In this document: positions 1,136 through 14,439 of the stretch, one piece after another
Layout: each line of letters starts with the position of its first letter
Position numbering within the stretch: the stretch's first letter is position 1
From: Williamsia muralis NBRC 105860
GTDB lineage: Bacteria; Actinomycetota; Actinomycetes; Mycobacteriales; Mycobacteriaceae
Direction of reading: 5' to 3'
Assembly: GCF_001598915.1 (NCBI RefSeq)
Contig: NZ_BDAP01000006.1
Span: 124,001-188,000 of the forward strand
Length of the DNA stretch: 64,000 bases
The notes under the pieces: generated by a model
What the model was told of the DNA's origin: nothing
The model's input: the letters and a program-made list of their open reading frames with translations, nothing else
The model's database searches: none
Position numbers and translations under genes: made by a program

Positions 1136-1170
1136 TTGTTCTTCGAAAACATGTTCGATACGGTGAGGTG
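1136..1170 (+). promoter_or_regulatory. SOS (LexA) promoter of dnaE2
   Basis: TCGAAAACATGTTCGA at 1143-1158 matches the mycobacterial LexA box TCGAAC-N4-GTTCGA at all but one position of the half-sites. A -35-like TTGTTC (1136-1141) and a -10-like TACGGT (1159-1164) flank it with 17-bp spacing, so bound LexA would cover the promoter spacer. The predicted transcript starts at about 1170, the dnaE2 start codon, implying a leaderless mRNA. The remaining 936-1135 shows no gene. Confidence 0.85.
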
Positions 1171-4100
1171 TGGGTTGGCACAACGGCCCTCCGACCTGGT
1201 CGGAGCTGGAACGGGTTCTTTCCGGGCGGCCGCATGTCGGCGGCCGATCCGGCGAGACCTTTGCCGGCGACGGTGGCGACAGTCCGGCGTGGTCGCGTAA
1301 ACGCACGCCCTACGAGGCCGGCGAGTTACGACGAGGCAAGTCGCAGGTCCGGTACGCCGAACTGCACGCCCACAGCTCCTACAGTTTTCTCGACGGGGCC
1401 AGCAGTCCCGAGGAGATGGCAGAGGAAGCGCATCGGCTGGGCCTCGAAGCCTTGGCGATCACCGACCACAACGGGTTCTACGGTGTGGTGCGTTTCGCCG
1501 AGGCAGCCCTGGAATGGAAGCTGCCCACCGTCTTCGGCTCCGAACTCTCGCTGCTGCGTGATGCCCCTCGCACCGGTGTGGCCGATCCGGACGGTTCGCA
1601 TCTGCTGGTCCTGGCCCGGGGCCAGGAGGGCTACCGCAGGCTGTCCCGGCAGATCGCCGCCGGACACATGGCGGCAGGTGAGAAGGGACTGCTGCGTTTT
1701 GACGTCGAGACGTTGGCAGGGGCCGCGGACGGGCATTGGCTGATACTCACCGGATGCCGAAAAGGAGCTGTGCGCCAGGCATTGTCGTCGAGCGGGCCGG
1801 ATGCCGCCGATGCTGCGCTCGGTGAGTTGATCGACCTGTTCGGCCGCGACAACGTGGCCGTGGAACTGACCGCGCAGGGGATGGCCGATGACGACGAACG
1901 CAACGCGGTGCTCGCGGGGCTGGCCCGGCGCAATCGGGTGATGACGGTGGCGACCACGGGCGCCCACTTCTCGGCGCCACATCGCAGGCGGCTGGCGATG
2001 GCGATGGCCGCGGTGCGTGCGCGCCGCAGTCTGGATGAGATGGATGGCTGGCTCGCGCCCCTCGGGGGCGCCCACCTGCGCAGCGGAGACGAGATGGCGC
2101 GGCTCCTCAGTGCTCACCCCGATGCCATCGACAACGCCGCGATGCTGGCCGGCGAGCTCGCCTTCGGATTGCACCTGATCGCACCGCAGTTGCCGCCGTT
2201 CGACGTACCCGAAGGGCACACGGAGAGTTCGTGGCTGCGAGAACTGACCGCACGCGGGGCCACCGAGCGGTACGGCACGCCGCAGAGCCATCCCAAGGCG
2301 TATGAGCAGATCGAGCACGAACTCGATGTGATCGACACCCTCGGGTTCCCGGGCTACTTCCTGGTGGTCGAGGACATCGTCAGGTATTGCCGCGACAACA
2401 ACATCCTCTGCCAGGGCCGCGGCAGTGCAGCCAACTCGGCGGTGTGTTACGCACTGGGGATCACCGCGATCGACCCGGTCGGCAACGATCTGCTGTTCGA
2501 ACGATTCCTGTCGCCCGCCCGCGATGGCCCACCCGACATCGACATCGACATCGAGTCGGATCTGCGAGAAGAGGCCATCCAGTACGTGTACCGACGGTAC
2601 GGGAGGCAGAACGCCGCTCAGGTCGCCAATGTGATCACCTATCGGGGCAAGTCGTCGGTGCGGGACATGGCTCGCGCACTGGGGTATTCGGTGGGGCAGC
2701 AGGATGCCTGGAGCAAACAGGTGCATCGATACGATGCGGCGAAGGCCAACGAACACGACATCCCCGACGATGTGGTCGACCTCGCCAATCAGATCAACGG
2801 CATGCCGAGGCATCTGGGTATCCATTCCGGCGGCATGGTGATCTGCGACCGGCCGATCGCCGACGTCTGTCCCACCGAATGGGCCAGGATGCCCAATCGC
2901 AGTGTGCTGCAATGGGACAAAGACGACTGCGCTGCCATCGGTCTGGTGAAGTTCGACATGCTGGGTCTGGGAATGCTGTCAGCCATCCACTACGCCATCG
3001 ACTTCCTCGAGCAGCACCGCGGCATCCATGTGGACCTGGCGAAGATCGATCTGACCGAAAAAGCCGTGTACGACATGTTGTGCAAAGCAGACACCGTCGG
3101 GGTGTTCCAAGTGGAATCGCGGGCGCAGATGGCAACGCTGCCACGGCTCAAGCCACGCAAGTTCTACGACCTGGTGGTGGAGGTGGCGCTCATCCGCCCC
3201 GGGCCCATTCAAGGTGGGTCGGTGCACCCGTATATCCGGCGTCGCAACGGATTGGAAGAGCCGACCTGTGAACACCCTTCGATGGAGGCGGCACTCGCGC
3301 GAACGCTGGGGGTGCCGCTGTTCCAGGAACAGTTGATGCAGGTTGCGGTGGATGTGGCCGGGTTCAGTGCCGCAGAGGCCGACCAGTTGCGCCGGGCGAT
3401 GGGGTCGAAGCGATCGCCGGAGAAGATGAACCGGCTACGCGGCCGGTTCTACCAGGGGATGGAGGATCTGCACGGCATCACCGGGGAGATGGCCGACCGC
3501 ATCTTCGAGAAGATGGCAGCGTTCGCCAATTTCGGTTTCCCGGAGAGTCATTCGCAGAGTTTTGCGTCCCTGGTGTTCTACTCGTCCTGGCTCAAGCTGC
3601 ACCACCCGGCGGCCTTCTGCGCGGCGTTGATCAAAGCGCAGCCCATGGGCTTCTATTCACCACAGACGCTGGTTGCCGACGCCCGGCGCCACGGCGTCGC
3701 CGTACATGGTCCTCACATCAACCTGTCGCAGGTGGACGCCGATCTGGAGAACGACGGACTCGACGTGCGCCTCGGGCTGGCGTCGGTGCGGTCGATCGGT
3801 ACCGAGTTGGCCGAGCAGATCGTCGAGCAGCGCTTGACCGGTGGCCCGTTCACGGGCGCAGCGGACCTGTCCCGGCGCACGGATGTGAGCACCAACCAGC
3901 TCGAGGCCTTGGCCACGGCCGGGGCATTCGACTGTTTCGGCATCAGCCGACGGCAGGCGTTGTGGGATGCCGGTTCGGCAGCTCAGGAGAAGTCCGATCG
4001 GCTGCCGCTGCATGAGAACAGTGCTGCGCCGGCACTTCCGGGGATGAGTGAGGTGGAAATGGCGGCGTCGGACGTATGGGCCACGGGGGTCAGCCCGGGC

Positions 4101-4457
4101 AGCTATCCCACCGAGTTCATCCGCCCCCAGCTCGACGCGCTGGGAGTGGTCGCGGCGGCGGACCTGTTGTCGGTGCCCGACGGTTCCCGTGTGCTGGTCG
4201 GCGGTGCGGTGACCCACCGGCAACGCCCCGCCACGGCGGCGGGAGTGACGTTTGTGAACCTGGAAGACGAGACGGGGATGGTCAATGTGGTGTGCTCGGT
4301 GGGTCTTTGGGCGAAATACCGCAAACTGGCCCAGACGGCGCCCGCCCTGCTGATCCGGGGGCGGGTGCAAAATGCCGAGGGGGCGGTGACGGTGGTGGCC
4401 GACCGCCTGCAGCGCATGGACCTCCGTGTCGGATCCCGATCTCGTGACTGGGCCTGA
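1170..4457 (+). CDS. dnaE2: Error-prone DNA polymerase DnaE2 (C-family)
   Basis: 1095 residues, normal for DnaE2. This damage-inducible polymerase performs mutagenic translesion synthesis, in mycobacteria together with ImuA'/ImuB. A PHP domain begins near residue 61 (YAELHAHSSYSFLDGAS, ITDHNGFYG). The polymerase catalytic acidic motif PDIDIDIES lies near residue 453, followed by the fingers and tandem HhH region. A C-terminal OB fold is near residue 1028 (FVNLEDETGMVNVV). The GTG at 1170 gives MGWHNGPPTWSELERVL, matching the usual mycobacterial N-terminus. No imuA'/imuB lies beside it, as in M. tuberculosis. Expression is expected to be SOS-controlled through the LexA box 11 bp upstream. Confidence 0.96.
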   Translation: MGWHNGPPTWSELERVLSGRPHVGGRSGETFAGDGGDSPAWSRKRTPYEAGELRRGKSQVRYAELHAHSSYSFLDGASSPEEMAEEAHRLGLEALAITDHNGFYGVVRFAEAALEWKLPTVFGSELSLLRDAPRTGVADPDGSHLLVLARGQEGYRRLSRQIAAGHMAAGEKGLLRFDVETLAGAADGHWLILTGCRKGAVRQALSSSGPDAADAALGELIDLFGRDNVAVELTAQGMADDDERNAVLAGLARRNRVMTVATTGAHFSAPHRRRLAMAMAAVRARRSLDEMDGWLAPLGGAHLRSGDEMARLLSAHPDAIDNAAMLAGELAFGLHLIAPQLPPFDVPEGHTESSWLRELTARGATERYGTPQSHPKAYEQIEHELDVIDTLGFPGYFLVVEDIVRYCRDNNILCQGRGSAANSAVCYALGITAIDPVGNDLLFERFLSPARDGPPDIDIDIESDLREEAIQYVYRRYGRQNAAQVANVITYRGKSSVRDMARALGYSVGQQDAWSKQVHRYDAAKANEHDIPDDVVDLANQINGMPRHLGIHSGGMVICDRPIADVCPTEWARMPNRSVLQWDKDDCAAIGLVKFDMLGLGMLSAIHYAIDFLEQHRGIHVDLAKIDLTEKAVYDMLCKADTVGVFQVESRAQMATLPRLKPRKFYDLVVEVALIRPGPIQGGSVHPYIRRRNGLEEPTCEHPSMEAALARTLGVPLFQEQLMQVAVDVAGFSAAEADQLRRAMGSKRSPEKMNRLRGRFYQGMEDLHGITGEMADRIFEKMAAFANFGFPESHSQSFASLVFYSSWLKLHHPAAFCAALIKAQPMGFYSPQTLVADARRHGVAVHGPHINLSQVDADLENDGLDVRLGLASVRSIGTELAEQIVEQRLTGGPFTGAADLSRRTDVSTNQLEALATAGAFDCFGISRRQALWDAGSAAQEKSDRLPLHENSAAPALPGMSEVEMAASDVWATGVSPGSYPTEFIRPQLDALGVVAAADLLSVPDGSRVLVGGAVTHRQRPATAAGVTFVNLEDETGMVNVVCSVGLWAKYRKLAQTAPALLIRGRVQNAEGAVTVVADRLQRMDLRVGSRSRDWA

Positions 4458-4527: not shown

Positions 4528-4533
4528 TAGCAT
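4528..4533 (+). promoter_or_regulatory. -10 box for the retron RNA
   Basis: TAGCAT fits the actinobacterial TANNNT -10 consensus. Six to seven bases downstream is about 4540, where the a1 arm of the inverted repeat begins (4539), so the predicted transcript would start with a1. No clear -35 was found at the right spacing. Confidence 0.5.
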
Positions 4534-4538
4534 GACGG

Positions 4539-4559
4539 GATGCGCGGTGGGCGGGGCGA
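4539..4559 (+). repeat. Retron a1 arm
   Basis: GATGCGCGG-TG-GGCGGGGCGA. It pairs with the reverse complement of 4681-4700 at 19 of 21 positions in two uninterrupted blocks of 9 and 10 bp. Confidence 0.8.
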
Positions 4560-4680
4560 GAGTGGGTTCTCCGAACCCGTCTCAGGGGCAACCCCTGGGT
4601 ACATCTCACAGTTGGTATCAGCGTCCGACGCCGGCAGGCACGCTCCGCGTGCTACACGGCGCCGCAGACGAGAGTTCTGG

Positions 4681-4700
4681 TCGCCCCGCCGCCGCGCATC
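4681..4700 (+). repeat. Retron a2 arm
   Basis: TCGCCCCGCCGCCGCGCATC, whose reverse complement is GATGCGCGG-C-GGCGGGGCGA. It ends six bases before the start codon of the reverse transcriptase. Confidence 0.8.
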
Positions 4701-4706
4701 TGCCTC

Positions 4707-6020
4707 ATGACCACCGACTCGACCCATCCGGGAGACTCCACCGACTCCGCGCATCCTGACGATCTGGGTGGCCTCGGCCCTGAGATCCGGATCCCGGCAC
4801 GGTCGCTCGACCTGCTCATCAACCGGCTCGAGGTGGATCCGCGGTGGTCGGTCCATGCGCTGGGCGACATGCTGGCGGCCACGACGGCGCCTGCCACGGC
4901 CACGGCCCTGCTCGGCCTGCTGCTCGAGAAGTTCCCCGAGAGGCCTGAGCCGGAGGCCGTTCGCAGGGCGCTCTGGTCGATGGTCATCGAGAACCGCAGC
5001 CACGTCTTCGGTGAACTGCCGACGCCCGAGATGACGTTCGCTCTCACTCCGCTGGCCGACGCCACCGATGTGGCGCGCTGGCTCGGTCTCACGGTGGGCG
5101 AACTGGAGTGGTTCGCCGATCGGGGTCTCTGGCTACGCTCGAAAAAGACTGCGCTCGCCCATTATCGGTATGTCACGATCCCCAAACGCGACGGCGTCAG
5201 GGTGATCGAGGCGCCAAAACCCCATCTACGCGAGATCCAGCGCCGGATACTCCGGGAGATACTCGATCGCATCCCACCGCATCGCGCGGCGCAGGGATTT
5301 GTCGCGGGCCGGTCCACGGCGAGTTTCGCCTGGCCACACTCCGACCGCAACGTGGTGTTGCGGGTCGATCTGCGGAACTGCTTCCCGACCATCACCTCGG
5401 CGCGGGTGCGCGCGGTTTTCGCAGCTGTCGGATATCGGCGGACATCCCGGCTCTTGTCCGAGATATGCACCACCGCAACACCTCCCGATGTGCTTCGAGG
5501 ACTCGACTTCGCCCACGCGTCGCTGCTGCGGGCGCGGCATCTGCCGCAGGGTGCCCCGACCTCGCCGGCCCTGGCCAACCTGGTCATGCGCACCATGGAC
5601 CGCCGGATCTGGGGTTATGCCCGGCACAACAACCTCCACTACAGCCGTTACGGCGACGATCTGGCCATCTCGGGCGACGTCATGGACGCAGGACAGGTGC
5701 TCTGGACGGTGCTGCGCATCATCGCCGACGAAGGCTTCACCGTTCACCCCGACAAGACGAAGATCATGTACTCACACCAGCGCCAGCAACTCGCGGGGCT
5801 GGTGGTCAACGACCGGCCCAGGGTCGGCCGGGTCGACTACGACAACCTCAGGGCATTGCTGCACAACGCCATTCGCACGGGTGCCCACGCCCAGAACCGC
5901 GACGACCATCCGCGTTTCCGCGAGCACGTATACGGCAAGATCGCGTGGATCGCCGCCACCAGCCCATCCCGGCGAAACACGTTGCTGGCCATGGCCGAAC
6001 GGGTTGACTGGGATCGCTAG
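4707..6020 (+). CDS. Retron-type reverse transcriptase with N-terminal extension
   Basis: 437 residues. The RT core runs from about residue 150 (RYVTIPKRDGVRVIEAPKP, LREIQRRILREIL) to the end. Motif A is LRVDLRNCFPTI (catalytic Asp221), followed by LPQGAPTSPALANL near residue 278 and YSRYGDDLAIS (Asp317, Asp318). The retron region-Y 'VTG' is replaced by LAG in QLAGLVVNDRP. Region X has the His-bearing FAWPHSD where many retrons have NAxxH. About 115 N-terminal residues precede a small helical stretch (VARWLGLTVGELEWFADRGL); this arrangement recalls myxobacterial Mx162-type retron RTs (from memory). There is no maturase or intron domain. The enzyme should reverse-transcribe the adjacent RNA into msDNA. 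ATG 4707 lies right after a2 with no Shine-Dalgarno site. Confidence 0.9.
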   Translation: MTTDSTHPGDSTDSAHPDDLGGLGPEIRIPARSLDLLINRLEVDPRWSVHALGDMLAATTAPATATALLGLLLEKFPERPEPEAVRRALWSMVIENRSHVFGELPTPEMTFALTPLADATDVARWLGLTVGELEWFADRGLWLRSKKTALAHYRYVTIPKRDGVRVIEAPKPHLREIQRRILREILDRIPPHRAAQGFVAGRSTASFAWPHSDRNVVLRVDLRNCFPTITSARVRAVFAAVGYRRTSRLLSEICTTATPPDVLRGLDFAHASLLRARHLPQGAPTSPALANLVMRTMDRRIWGYARHNNLHYSRYGDDLAISGDVMDAGQVLWTVLRIIADEGFTVHPDKTKIMYSHQRQQLAGLVVNDRPRVGRVDYDNLRALLHNAIRTGAHAQNRDDHPRFREHVYGKIAWIAATSPSRRNTLLAMAERVDWDR

Positions 6021-6090: not shown

Positions 6091-6510
6091 ATGACGCGCA
6101 GCAACTATTCGAACAATCTCAACCGCCAGACACCGGGCGCTGTCGAGACCACCGACAGCGAGAACTCGCTGGACACTCAGATCGCGATTGTCTGGGCGCT
6201 CGAAGACGGGTGGCAGGGTGCTGACTCGCTGGCCCCGAGCCCCCAAGCCAAAGAGTTCTACGAGATCTACCGCGATGGACTGCCCAGTTCTTACTGGAAC
6301 GAATCGGCGCCGAGCGCAACCGTCGACGGCGGTTTGCACCTCGGATGGGAACGCAGCGACCACATCTATTCCGCCGACATCCTGCCCGGCGGCGAACTGG
6401 TCTTACGGGTGACCGCACCTCATGAGTCGGACAACGCCGAACTCCGACTGGATCAGCCGACAGCAGGGATGCTCCGCCGTTTCGTGATGCGTGGCCTGCC
6501 CATCGACTGA
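6091..6510 (+). CDS. Small protein of unknown function downstream of the retron
   Basis: 139 residues, soluble, acidic, with no signal peptide or membrane segment. The core reads GWQGADSLAPSPQAKEFYEIY, then ATVDGGLHLGWE and LPGGELVLRV. It recalls a widespread family of ~120-150 residue proteins with the pattern W(D/Q)G-A-PSP-A... P...DGG-LEW, of unknown function. TAGCCT (6079-6084) sits six bases before the ATG, so it may have its own leaderless promoter. It lies 70 bp after the reverse transcriptase on the same strand, so an accessory or effector role in the retron is possible but unproven. Confidence 0.7.
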   Translation: MTRSNYSNNLNRQTPGAVETTDSENSLDTQIAIVWALEDGWQGADSLAPSPQAKEFYEIYRDGLPSSYWNESAPSATVDGGLHLGWERSDHIYSADILPGGELVLRVTAPHESDNAELRLDQPTAGMLRRFVMRGLPID

Positions 6511-6562
6511 CGTCAGACCAGCCCGATAGTCAGACCGCCCCGATCGCTAGACCGCCCCGGCG
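6511..6562. repeat. Three imperfect 17-18-bp direct repeats at a convergent junction
   Basis: Units of the type GTCAGACCGCCCCGATC follow one another (starting near 6512, 6529 and 6546), the last covering the trmL stop codon (6547-6549). They fill the 36 bp between the two convergent genes. No terminator hairpin is visible. Confidence 0.45.
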
Positions 6563-7011
6563 AAACCGTGCTGTCGCCATGCCTCGTACACAACGATGCT
6601 CGCCGCGTTCGCGAGGTTGAGGGAACGTCGGCCGGCCAGCATGGGGATGCGGACACGTTCGGTCACGTGCGGGTCGGACATCACCTCTTCCGACAGCCCG
6701 GTGGGCTCTGGACCGAACAACAGAACGTCGCCGGGTTGATAGTGGATGTCGGTGTAGAACGTGTCGGCATGGGCGGTGAAGGCGAAAACCCGTTGTGGGG
6801 CAAGCGCACCCCAGGCAGCGAACAGATCCTCGTGCACGGTCACCGACGCCATGTCGTGGTAGTCGAGCCCGGCACGCTTCACCTTGGGTTCGGACAGGTC
6901 GAATCCCAGCGGTTCCACCAGGTGTAGCTGACACCCGGTGTTGGCCGCCAACCGGATCGCGTTACCGGTGTTGGGGGGTATGCAGGGCTCGTGGAACAGC
7001 AGTCGGAACAC
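6547..7011 (-). CDS. trmL: tRNA (cytidine/uridine-34-2'-O)-methyltransferase, SpoU/TrmD superfamily
   Basis: 154 residues, the normal TrmL length. TrmL 2'-O-methylates the wobble base of certain leucine tRNAs using SAM. The N-terminus FHEPCIPPNTGNAIRLAANTG (motif 1), LLFGPEPTGLSEEV (motif 2) and IPMLAGRRSLNLANAASIVVYEA (motif 3) form the SPOUT knot and SAM site. The start is GTG at 7011; it is divergent from mfpA with 70 bp between. It corresponds in position to the SpoU-like Rv3366 of M. tuberculosis. Confidence 0.92.
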   Translation of the reverse strand: MFRLLFHEPCIPPNTGNAIRLAANTGCQLHLVEPLGFDLSEPKVKRAGLDYHDMASVTVHEDLFAAWGALAPQRVFAFTAHADTFYTDIHYQPGDVLLFGPEPTGLSEEVMSDPHVTERVRIPMLAGRRSLNLANAASIVVYEAWRQHGFAGAV

Positions 7012-11786: not shown

Positions 11787-12953
11787 TCAGCGCCGCGCCA
11801 GATCGACGGTTTTCTTCAGAAGCTCTGAGACCGCATCGAATTCGGTCAGGAATCCGTCGTGGCCGTTGGCCGAATGCACAACGTGCAAGCCGTCGACGCA
11901 TCCCGGCATCAGCTCGGCCAACTCGACCTGCTGACGGATCGGGTACAGACGGTCGGAGTCGATACCGCCGACGATCACCGGCACCTCGCAGCTACGCAGC
12001 GCCGCCTCGACGCCGCCGCGACCGCGGCCGACGTCGTGGTGGTTGAGGACCTGCGAGAGCACCACGTAGCTGCCGGGATCGAACCGCTGGACCAACTTGT
12101 CGGCCTGGTGTTCGAGGTAGCTCTGGACCGCGTAACGGCCACCCTCGAGTGGATTCTCTTGTCCCTGGGGCGAATTCGCGAAGCGCTCGTCCAACTCGAG
12201 TTCGTGGCGGTAGTACATGTGCGCAATGCGCCGCGCAACTCCCAATCCCGCGGTCGGCCTGCGGCCCGTGCCGTGATAGTCGCCGCCCTGCCAATCGGGA
12301 TCGGCTTGGATGGCGGCGATCTGGGTGGTCTGGGTGCCGATCTGGTCCGCGGAGGCCCGGGCGCCCACAGCCAAGATGAGTGCACTGCGCACTCGTTCGG
12401 GGTAGCCGATCACCCACTCGAGCGACCGCGCGCCGCCCATGGATCCACCGAGGACCGCTGCGACGGTGTCGATCTCGAGGGCGTCCATCAACGCGACCTC
12501 GGCCCGCACCTGGTCGAGCACGGTGATCTGCGGGAAGCGCGAACCCCACACGCGCCCTTCGGAATCGAGTGATGCCGGTCCGGTGGACCCCCGACAACCA
12601 CCGAGGACGTTGGCCGAGACCACACACCATTCGTTCGTGTCGACGGCGGCGCCCGGACCGATCAGCCCATCCCACCAACCAGGGGAGGGCTGACCGGGTC
12701 CGGCCGGGCCGGTGACGTGGGAGTCACCGGTGAGCGCGTGTAGCGCCAGCACCACGTTGTCGCGCGCTTTCGAGAGTGTGCCCCACCGCTGGAAGGCGAG
12801 GGTGACGTTCTCGATGCGCTCGCCGTTGTCGAGCTCGATGGGCCCCACCGACACACTGGTCAGCTTCCCGTCAGGCAGCGACTCCCAATCCGGGTGGATT
12901 CGCGGGGGCGTGTGCGGGTCGGTGCTCAATGTCGGCTTGGGGCTCGTCGTCAC
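11787..12953 (-). CDS. metX: Homoserine O-acetyltransferase
   Basis: 388 residues of the alpha/beta-hydrolase MetX family, transferring acetyl from acetyl-CoA to homoserine in methionine synthesis. The nucleophile elbow is [14 protein letters not shown]. Other hallmarks are [41 protein letters not shown] (Asp) and [11 protein letters not shown] (His). GTG 12953 overlaps the metY stop by 4 bp (GTGA), so the two are translationally coupled. It matches M. tuberculosis metA (Rv3341), which despite its name is MetX-type. It is controlled with metY by the upstream SAM-IV riboswitch. Confidence 0.95.
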
Positions 12954-14266
12954 TTGGCTGCGGCGAAGCCTGCGTCGAGGTCGGCAATGATGTCGGCGAT
13001 GTTCTCGATGCCAACTGCCAACCGGACCAGCCCTGGGGCGACACCTGCGGCGAGCTGCTCTTCCGGCAGCAGCTGCGAGTGGGTGGTGGAGGCCGGGTGG
13101 ATCACCAGCGAGCGCACGTCGCCGATGTTGGCGACATGGCTGTGCAGGGTGAGTCCTTCGACGAACCGCTTGCCGGCATCGACGCCACCGGCGATCTCGA
13201 AACCGATGATGGCGCCCTGGCCGCGCGGGGCGAGTTCCTGACCTCGCTTGTACCAGCGCGACGATTCGAGGCCGGCGTACGCGACCGACTCGACCTGAGC
13301 GTGCTCGGAGAGATACTTGGCGACGGCCTGAGCGTTGGACACGTGCCGCTCGATCCGCAGGCTCAAGGTCTCCAGACCCTGCGCGATGAGGAAGGCGTTG
13401 AACGGCGAGATCGCGGCGCCGGTGTCGCGCAGCCACTGGACCCGGGCCTTGAGCGCGTAGGCCGGTGCGCCGAGGTCTGCGAACACGGCACCGTGGTAGC
13501 TGGGGTCCGGGGTGGTGAAGCCCGGGAACAGGTCTTTGCCGTCTCGCTGTCCACGCCAGTCGAAGGTACCGCCGTCGACGATCACTCCGCCGATCGCTGT
13601 GCCGTGGCCGCCGAGGTACTTGGTTGCCGAGTGGACGACGATGTCGGCGCCGTGGGCGAGGGGATTGATCAGGTACGGGGTCGCGACGGTGTTGTCGACG
13701 ATGAGGGGCAGGCCCGCCTCGTGCGCGACCGAGCTGATTCCCGGTAGATCAAGGATCTCGTTGTTGGGGTTGGAGATGGTCTCACCGAAGAATGCGCGGG
13801 TGTTCGGCTTGATCGCCGCACGCCAGCTGTCGAGATCTTCGGGATCCTCGACGAAGCCCACCTCGATGCCCAGCTTGGGCAGTGTGTAGTGGAAGAGATT
13901 GTAGGTACCGCCGTAGAGCCGCGGGCTCGACACGACGTGCCCGCCGTTTTCGACGATGTTGAGGATGGCGTAGGTCTCGGCGGCCTGACCGGACGCGACC
14001 AGGAGAGCGGCGACGCCACCCTCGAGTGCCGCGATGCGCTGCTCGACGGCATCCTGCGTCGGGTTCATGATGCGCGTGTAGATGTTGCCGGGTTCGACGA
14101 GTCCGAAGAGGTTCGCTGCGTGCTCGGTGTCACGGAAGGTGTACGAGGTGGTTTGGTAGATCGGCAATGCCCGGGCCGAGGTCTGCGAATCGGGGCTCTG
14201 ACCAACATGGACCTGCTTGGTCTCGAAGCTCCAGTTGTCGGCGGGATTGACGTCAGTGTCAGACAT
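12950..14266 (-). CDS. metY: O-acetylhomoserine (thiol)-lyase / sulfhydrylase
   Basis: 438 residues, a Cys/Met-metabolism PLP enzyme of the MetY type (its extra loops make it longer than MetB/MetZ). It makes homocysteine from O-acetylhomoserine and sulfide. Features: [25 protein letters not shown] split over the N-terminal clamp, [18 protein letters not shown], the PLP lysine in [13 protein letters not shown], and a C-terminal [17 protein letters not shown] 14266 has a strong ribosome site (GAAGGAAGAAG). It is the first gene of metY-metX. Confidence 0.95.
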
Positions 14267-14308: not shown

Positions 14309-14327
14309 GGGTCCGACCTTCGGACCC
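14309..14327 (-). promoter_or_regulatory. Expression-platform hairpin in the metY leader
   Basis: GGGTCCGA / TCGGACCC with a 3-base loop: a perfect 8-bp stem between the SAM-IV aptamer and the metY ribosome site. No U-run follows. It may form or block the switching helix that hides the ribosome site; this role is inferred. Confidence 0.5.
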
Positions 14328-14352
14328 GCGCTTGCCGCGGCGAAAAACCGCT

Positions 14353-14439
14353 GGCCTGGTCATCACCCGGAGCACCCCACCGCGGTTGGAGGGTTGCCGA
14401 TCAGCGAGCCGGGGCTTGTCGCTGATACTCATGACCTGG
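14353..14439 (-). ncRNA. SAM-IV riboswitch aptamer
   Basis: On the minus strand the leader reads GGTCATGAGTATCAGCG, AAGCCCCGGCTCGCTGAT, CGGCAACCCTCC, CCGCGGTGGGGTGC and CGGGTGATGACCAGGCC. These are the conserved blocks of the actinobacterial SAM-IV class, including the terminal GGTCAT/ATGACC stem. TATCCT (14450-14445) is a fitting -10, with a start near 14438. S-adenosylmethionine binding would lower metY-metX expression. Confidence 0.92.

Follow-up and report, generated by a model that had tools for sequence, protein, structure and literature searches.

A retron locus, made up of an msr-msd RNA and the reverse transcriptase (RT) encoded behind it, lies near one end of the window, the 64,000-nt stretch of Williamsia muralis DNA analysed here. 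The original prediction of a retron is supported. The anatomy of the RNA, covariation of its stems, co-occurrence of RNA and RT in 80/80 loci and the retron-type RT all identify the element, and we put the probability that it is a genuine retron that makes msDNA, the msDNA being a predicted product, at about 0.86. Weighing against this reading are the deviation of both retron signature motifs, the decay of some copies and an N-terminal RT domain that not every locus has in full. The general picture of retrons, drawn largely from Proteobacteria, combines an RT with an RNA and a toxin. Their presence in Actinobacteria is mentioned in PMC6868368. The locus belongs to a large retron family of mycolic-acid bacteria whose RNA can be predicted precisely and for which we found no linked toxin, and it offers a testable case of retron action without a separate effector. 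The RT-RNA pair is native to high-GC Gram-positives and could serve retron-based DNA production or editing there.

Layout and covariation of the retron RNA

Direct reading of the sequence placed the 9 + 10-bp repeat, the hairpins, the TANNNT box and the RT start each where they had been predicted (Table 1). The closing a1/a2 stem consists of 10 perfect inner and 9 outer base pairs separated by a 2/1 internal loop, and the ATG of the RT at 4707 follows six bases past a2. The genome from which the window comes has a single copy of the RNA and a single copy of the RT. When 4539-4700 was folded, every claimed stem closed, at -95.2 kcal/mol compared with -71.3 (sd 4.5) in 200 shuffles (z -5.31), none of which folded as well.

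Table 1. Features of the retron locus and its flanks (window positions)
Feature	Position	Strand	Basis
-10 box TAGCAT, putative promoter for the retron RNA	4528-4533	+	[CT]ANNNT pattern upstream of a1
a1, 5' arm of the closing stem	4539-4559	+	9 + 10 bp with 4681-4700; covaries
Predicted priming (branching) G, motif GAGA	4560	+	Invariance and position as in known retrons
msr hairpin 1	4564-4578 (4564-4569/4573-4578)	+	Fold and covariation
msr hairpin 2, CUCAGGGG-CAA-CCCCUGGG	4581-4599 (4581-4588/4592-4599)	+	Fold and covariation
Predicted msd template, about 80 nt	4600-4680	+	Inferred from anatomy
msd hairpin	4629-4661 (outer 4629-4633/4657-4661, inner 4638-4643/4647-4652)	+	Fold and covariation
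a2, 3' arm of the closing stem	4681-4700	+	Starts within GGUC (4679-4682); pairs with a1
Retron reverse transcriptase (RT), 437 aa	4707-6020	+	RVT_1 at residues 158-363; YGDD at 315-318
RT N-terminal four-helix domain, residues 31-90, followed by a low-confidence linker	4797-4976	+	AlphaFold2
DNA polymerase III alpha, dnaE2 type, upstream flank outside the retron	1170-4457	+	Pfam domains; the name dnaE2 is a reading
TrmL-like tRNA methyltransferase, downstream flank outside the retron	6547-7011	-	Name is a reading of the ORF

The original prediction had pointed to other Gordonia genomes for comparison, a wrong host genus: the host is a Williamsia, and the RT is 96% identical in a same-genus Williamsia muralis. 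Scans based on inverted repeats only chose the wrong repeats in several loci, and motif anchors, followed by a covariance model, were used instead. The motif-anchor search located the RNA in 66 of 80 loci, and 31 of these 66 RNAs form the alignment (A1) from which the covariance model was built. In this MAFFT alignment the proposed pairs are standard in 95.9% of cells and 18/34 have changed on both sides; none of the five measures was reached by any of 500 shuffles, and sliding the partner by 1-3 columns leaves pairing of only 37-48%. Fitting 92 rows to the covariance model, a procedure that biases the alignment towards that model, gave 97.2% of cells paired and double changes in 24/34 pairs. 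Pairs changed on both sides occur in all six helices counted, and a1/a2, both msr hairpins and the msd hairpin covary. Double changes affect 4/5 pairs of msr hairpin 1 (helices 2 and 3 of the count), 2/8 pairs of msr hairpin 2, where 100% of cells are paired and the mean majority-base frequency over the 92 rows is 0.93, 4/5 pairs of the outer msd stem and 2/6 of the inner. The inner msd hairpin is itself highly conserved (mean majority-base frequency 0.93), which suggests a protein that recognises its sequence.

Covariation and retention of a1/a2 in homologues had been set beforehand as a test of the prediction, and neither loss of a1/a2 nor a lack of covariation was found. In an arm-exchange comparison covering 63 of the 66 motif-found loci, the two arms of one locus form a mean of 19.2 Watson-Crick pairs of 24 (lowest 12), compared with 14.7 when arms are swapped between genera, and 4.4% of the between-genus exchanges attain the own-locus median. 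G4558, A4559 and G4560 are invariant (31/31 rows), as is GUC at the start of a2 (4680-4682) in the same 31 rows, with G4679 nearly so. The earlier proposal of G4560 as the likely branching G is in keeping with this pattern, as the invariant A-G step just past a1 occupies the place of the priming G in known retrons. According to PMC6868368, that G lies at the inner end of a1, usually within TAGC but in some retrons within CAGA, CAGC, GAGC or ACGC; since the motif varies in this way, GAGA fits among known retrons.

Upstream of the RNA, a [CT]ANNNT box (a pattern picked after inspection of upstream sequences) lies 3-10 nt 5' of a1 in 58/60 loci and in 7.6% of 900 control windows, the 60 loci being the 66 motif-found ones minus three with mis-set bounds and three without the GAG anchor. 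The 5' end of the retron RNA is accordingly placed, as an expectation, near 4539. Three loci of genus g6 (L092, L093 and L100) have about 37-39 extra nucleotides separating msr hairpins 1 and 2, for which added structure is predicted. In two close relatives (L034 and L035), tandem repeats of about 21 nt lie between dnaE2 and the retron and, together with a copy close by, make up strong inverted repeats.

The reverse transcriptase and its N-terminal domain

An RT outside the retron clade had been named beforehand as a second outcome that would refute the prediction; profile and fold comparisons both bear out the assignment of the RT to that clade. The two top PADLOC profiles, RT_other (PDLC02949, 552 bits) and RT_outgroup (PDLC03740, 522 bits), match over nearly the full length and also span part of the N-terminal domain; both are untyped groups. 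RT_XIII, the closest typed model, reaches 311 bits, more than 200 bits under the untyped models, and is followed by RT_III-A (217) and RT_II-A (209). NCBIfam retron models score 151-175 bits, none reaching its cut-off, and group II models 52; as a retron RT, the protein scores well above group II and DRT models. The AlphaFold2 model (mean pLDDT 89.6, pTM 0.66) retrieved retron RTs only in rows 1-18 of a Foldseek search, headed by Ec86 (E 1.9e-20). The best PADLOC scores thus go to untyped models and not to types I-XIII, and the neighbour screen described below found no linked effector family across genera. As a new or small effector may have escaped it, we have not filed the element under a PADLOC type.

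The locus had been called apparently undescribed. For the RT this does not hold, its type being known as PADLOC RT_outgroup/RT_other, whereas the RNA has no match in Rfam at the gathering score or at E up to 10. A literature search, the main retron classification paper lying outside it, found no description of the RNA, and we do not claim priority for it. The only Rfam match in the window is a SAM-IV riboswitch at 14323-14436 on the minus strand (108.9 bits), located 5' of a minus-strand ORF (12950-14266) that we read as a methionine-synthesis enzyme.

Ec86 (Eco1), a type II-A retron, is the best solved relative by sequence (113 bits) as well as by fold. The element differs from it in having an extra N-terminal domain and no adjoining effector gene that we could find, in its motifs (FAWPH for NAXXH, LAG for VTG), and in reaching only 209 bits with the best RT_II-A model. 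The order a1, msr hairpins, msd, a2, RT is common to both (for Ec86, PMC6868368). These motif differences extend to the family, as seen in a protein alignment (A2) of 42 of the 80 RTs. Of the 80, 68 had a usable start, filtering at 85% identity brought these down to 44, and leaving out L062 and L064 gave the final 42; earlier drop-outs include L040, L055, L075, L078, L079, L094 and L109. Region X has the histidine in 42/42 and the asparagine in 0/42 (F in 35, Y in 7), giving [FY]xxxH against the textbook NAXXH. The glycine of region Y is likewise present in 42/42, preceded by A (32), T (9) or G (1) and before that by L (41) or M (1), so that the motif is mostly LAG or LTG against the textbook VTG. 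A published survey (PMC4244168) records NAXXH and VTG in just 59% and 47% of retron RTs, and neither can therefore be treated as a strict criterion. The active site reads YGDD in 29/42 and YADD in 13/42. With dN/dS of 0.08-0.25 in 16/16 pairs, the RT domain is under purifying selection.

The RT N-terminal domain did not figure in the original prediction. Residues 31-90 are modelled as four helices with pLDDT of 92-95 per ten residues in the whole AlphaFold2 model, and a model of the domain alone gives 83-94 over most of its length. Besides the PADLOC RT models, no confident fold or family match to the domain was found; on its own it matches RT_outgroup in 26 and RT_other in 22 of 42 members, with no match to either for the window's own domain. 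Outside the genus, identity to the window is 8-28% in the N-terminal domain and 44-57% over whole RTs, and one tryptophan of the domain is invariant among the 42 RTs of A2. In 14/16 pairs the N-terminal domain has a higher dN/dS than the RT domain, the distant pairs being near saturation. The room between the RNA and RT residue 115 amounts to at least 89 residues in 77/80 loci. In L082, L064 and L055 it is only 71, 52 and 32 residues, so the N-terminal domain can be shortened or lost, and the shortened RTs of L055 and L064 are natural tests of its role.

Occurrence and inheritance

Protein searches detected the RT in 8/9 genus genomes (E <= 0.001), in 96/301 family genomes from 14/31 genera (E <= 1e-30), in 56/249 order genomes and in 13/394 class genomes (both E <= 1e-40), the order and class samples also containing family genomes. 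We took 80 of the 96 family loci for analysis; the other 16, which had internal stops or were fragments or short matches, were set aside. The covariance model found the RNA 5' of the RT, on the same strand and once each, in 80/80 of these loci, a count in which the 31 rows of A1 match by construction and to which 14 loci were added that the motif-anchor search had not found. Copies of the element decay: 8 of the 96 family RT matches have a stop codon inside the best stretch, and in G006, one of eight same-genus genomes with the RT, the RT sequence is divided over two frames. In that genome (contig C35, L040) the RT occupies two overlapping frames next to an RNA scoring 166 bits, and the copy appears to have been broken recently.

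Among the best 80 RT loci listed, 22 lie outside Actinomycetota, at 42-47% identity (Planctomycetota, Acidobacteriota, Burkholderia and others). A plus-strand match to the RNA model was found at E <= 0.05 in nine of these 22, at E up to 1 in four, and in none of the other nine; the highest scores come from a Pirellulales bin (36.5 bits) and from a Myxococcales bin (L198, 33.6 bits), which carries a distant RT relative. There was also no match to the RNA model at some Actinomycetota relatives (e.g. L132, L144 and L146). Because the matches are weak or missing in other phyla and missing even at some Actinomycetota relatives, we regard the presence of the same RNA outside the phylum as suggestive only. 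A scan of viral contigs returned no relative, while 4 of 50,697 phage records match weakly and 5 of 72,556 plasmid records match.

A tree of 81 RTs is ordered mostly by host, with groups for g1 Williamsia, for most Gordonia together with Dietzia, for Tsukamurella, for most Rhodococcus and for Pseudonocardiaceae; Cyanobacteriota tags in the tree are Rhodococcus records, apparently through a name clash. Not all species fit this order: Williamsia herbipolensis and Gordonia malaquae are placed separately, and Rhodococcus tibetensis lies beside Hoyosella. The element is mostly chromosomal, largely tracks host lineages and has long been retained by soil-dwelling relatives of Mycobacterium. A record titled Kitasatospora arboriphila (NZ_JNYV01000003.1, G005, L150) groups with Williamsia, its RT being 96% and its dnaE2 100% identical to those of the window, and is probably a mislabelled or mixed genome.

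Genomic setting and possible function

The site between dnaE2 and the TrmL-like gene holds the retron in 16/80 loci: 8/8 in g1 and 6/6 in g18, both with Williamsia members, 1/1 in g16 and 1/11 in g9, which has Gordonia members. The distance between dnaE2 and the RT reaches 2.4 kb in one locus (L065). In G014 no retron separates dnaE2 and the TrmL-like gene, which lie about 388 nt apart. As the site is common to only 16/80 loci and G014 has the same gene pair with no retron between, we consider it a shared site and not a rule, and have rejected a functional link between dnaE2 and the retron. In the RT-less same-genus genome G001 (start of C15, L239), a gene that we read as an IS110-like transposase follows dnaE2 at the contig end, in the place that the retron takes in the other genus genomes, and the retron may there be either lost or unassembled. 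Elsewhere the neighbours look ordinary and differ within genera, as they also do in annotated Tsukamurella and Burkholderia records.

ORFs of 80 aa or more lying up to about 5 kb from the RT were compared all against all among the 80 loci, and no partner family tied to the RT across genera emerged, in a screen that could miss a small or fast-changing effector. The families that loci have in common were those of the dnaE2/TrmL neighbourhood, artefacts of overlapping frames, and looser clusters whose members vary in position and strand. One of these, the largest with 12 loci from five genera, was rejected as a partner since it comprises ABC-transporter ATPases and unrelated frames in scattered places. 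A 139-aa ORF downstream of the RT (6091-6510, plus strand) was likewise rejected as an effector, being present in 9/9 genus genomes including the RT-less one; it has no Pfam match and only weak matches in two others of 151 family genomes. Pfam and profile searches of the RT itself gave no known effector domain.

The layout suggests how the element may work. A single transcript from the box at 4528-4533 would carry the msr-msd RNA first and the RT after it, with the RNA closed by a1/a2 pairing. The RT would bind the msr hairpins and prime from the 2'-OH of G4560, copying about 80 nt from G4680 back to hairpin 2, near 4600, to give a branched msDNA that it continues to hold. The element would then consist of the RNA and one gene, and the part of effector or adaptor would fall to the RT's own helical N-terminal domain or to a partner encoded elsewhere. 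Because no linked effector gene was found, the N-terminal domain is our first candidate and a partner elsewhere the second. By analogy with other retrons, a role in defence is the default, and we consider it most likely, at about even odds, that phage or DNA damage is what the RT-msDNA complex detects, the fast-changing N-terminal domain contacting a partner. More tentatively, and at somewhat less than even odds, the family may be a separate class of one-gene retrons in which an ancient, conserved msr-msd RNA is combined with an N-terminal domain that acts as effector or partner-binding switch, inherited mainly vertically in Mycobacteriales and with weaker relatives in Pseudonocardiaceae, Planctomycetota, Acidobacteriota and Burkholderia.

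A different role is conceivable for the same retron. As a vertically inherited housekeeping element, its msDNA would act on the host, in DNA repair, the SOS response or gene regulation, without phage defence. Myxobacterial retrons of the Mx162/Sa163 type provide a model, to which we liken the element by description; their RT has an N-terminal extension. They are vertically inherited according to PMC6868368, and the element here resembles them in that respect, its RT tree mostly tracking hosts. Ordinary host genes as neighbours, the constancy of the dnaE2/TrmL site within Williamsia, the highly conserved inner msd hairpin, and the host-like look of the Tsukamurella and Burkholderia records, both filed as plasmids (the first with polA and rpsA, the second an 880-kb replicon), are also consistent with such a role. 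However, the distribution is patchy (96/301 family and 13/394 class genomes), the sites differ in other genera so that the link to dnaE2 is not general, a copy on a 47-kb Dietzia plasmid lies close to mercury reductase and transposase genes, and the fast-changing N-terminal domain is more like that of conflict genes. We consider a purely housekeeping retron unlikely, though it is the strongest of the alternatives.

Well-studied retrons have an effector. A defence retron of the classical two- or three-part kind, with an effector gene placed elsewhere in the genome or varying by genus, would accord with this and with the retron effectors described in PMC8867640, and in Tsukamurella a HAD-like gene does lie closely 3' of the RT, the next ORF being on the same strand in 7/7 g30 loci. 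Against this, the neighbour screen found no family besides those of the dnaE2/TrmL neighbourhood that accompanies the RT in more than one genus, and neither the ABC-transporter cluster nor the 139-aa Williamsia ORF behaves as a partner would, which makes such an effector a rather unlikely explanation.

It is improbable that the RNA is a mere regulatory leader of the RT gene and that the RT acts in some other way, without msDNA. The position of the RNA immediately 5' of the RT and in the same direction would suit a leader, as would the deviating retron signature motifs, but the RNA has the full anatomy of a retron in order (covarying a1/a2, A-G step, two msr hairpins, msd hairpin) and the RT matches retron RTs. 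Finally, GC-rich DNA yields many inverted repeats, yet their chance occurrence beside an RT of another class is refuted by the covariation and by the presence of the RNA in 80/80 loci.
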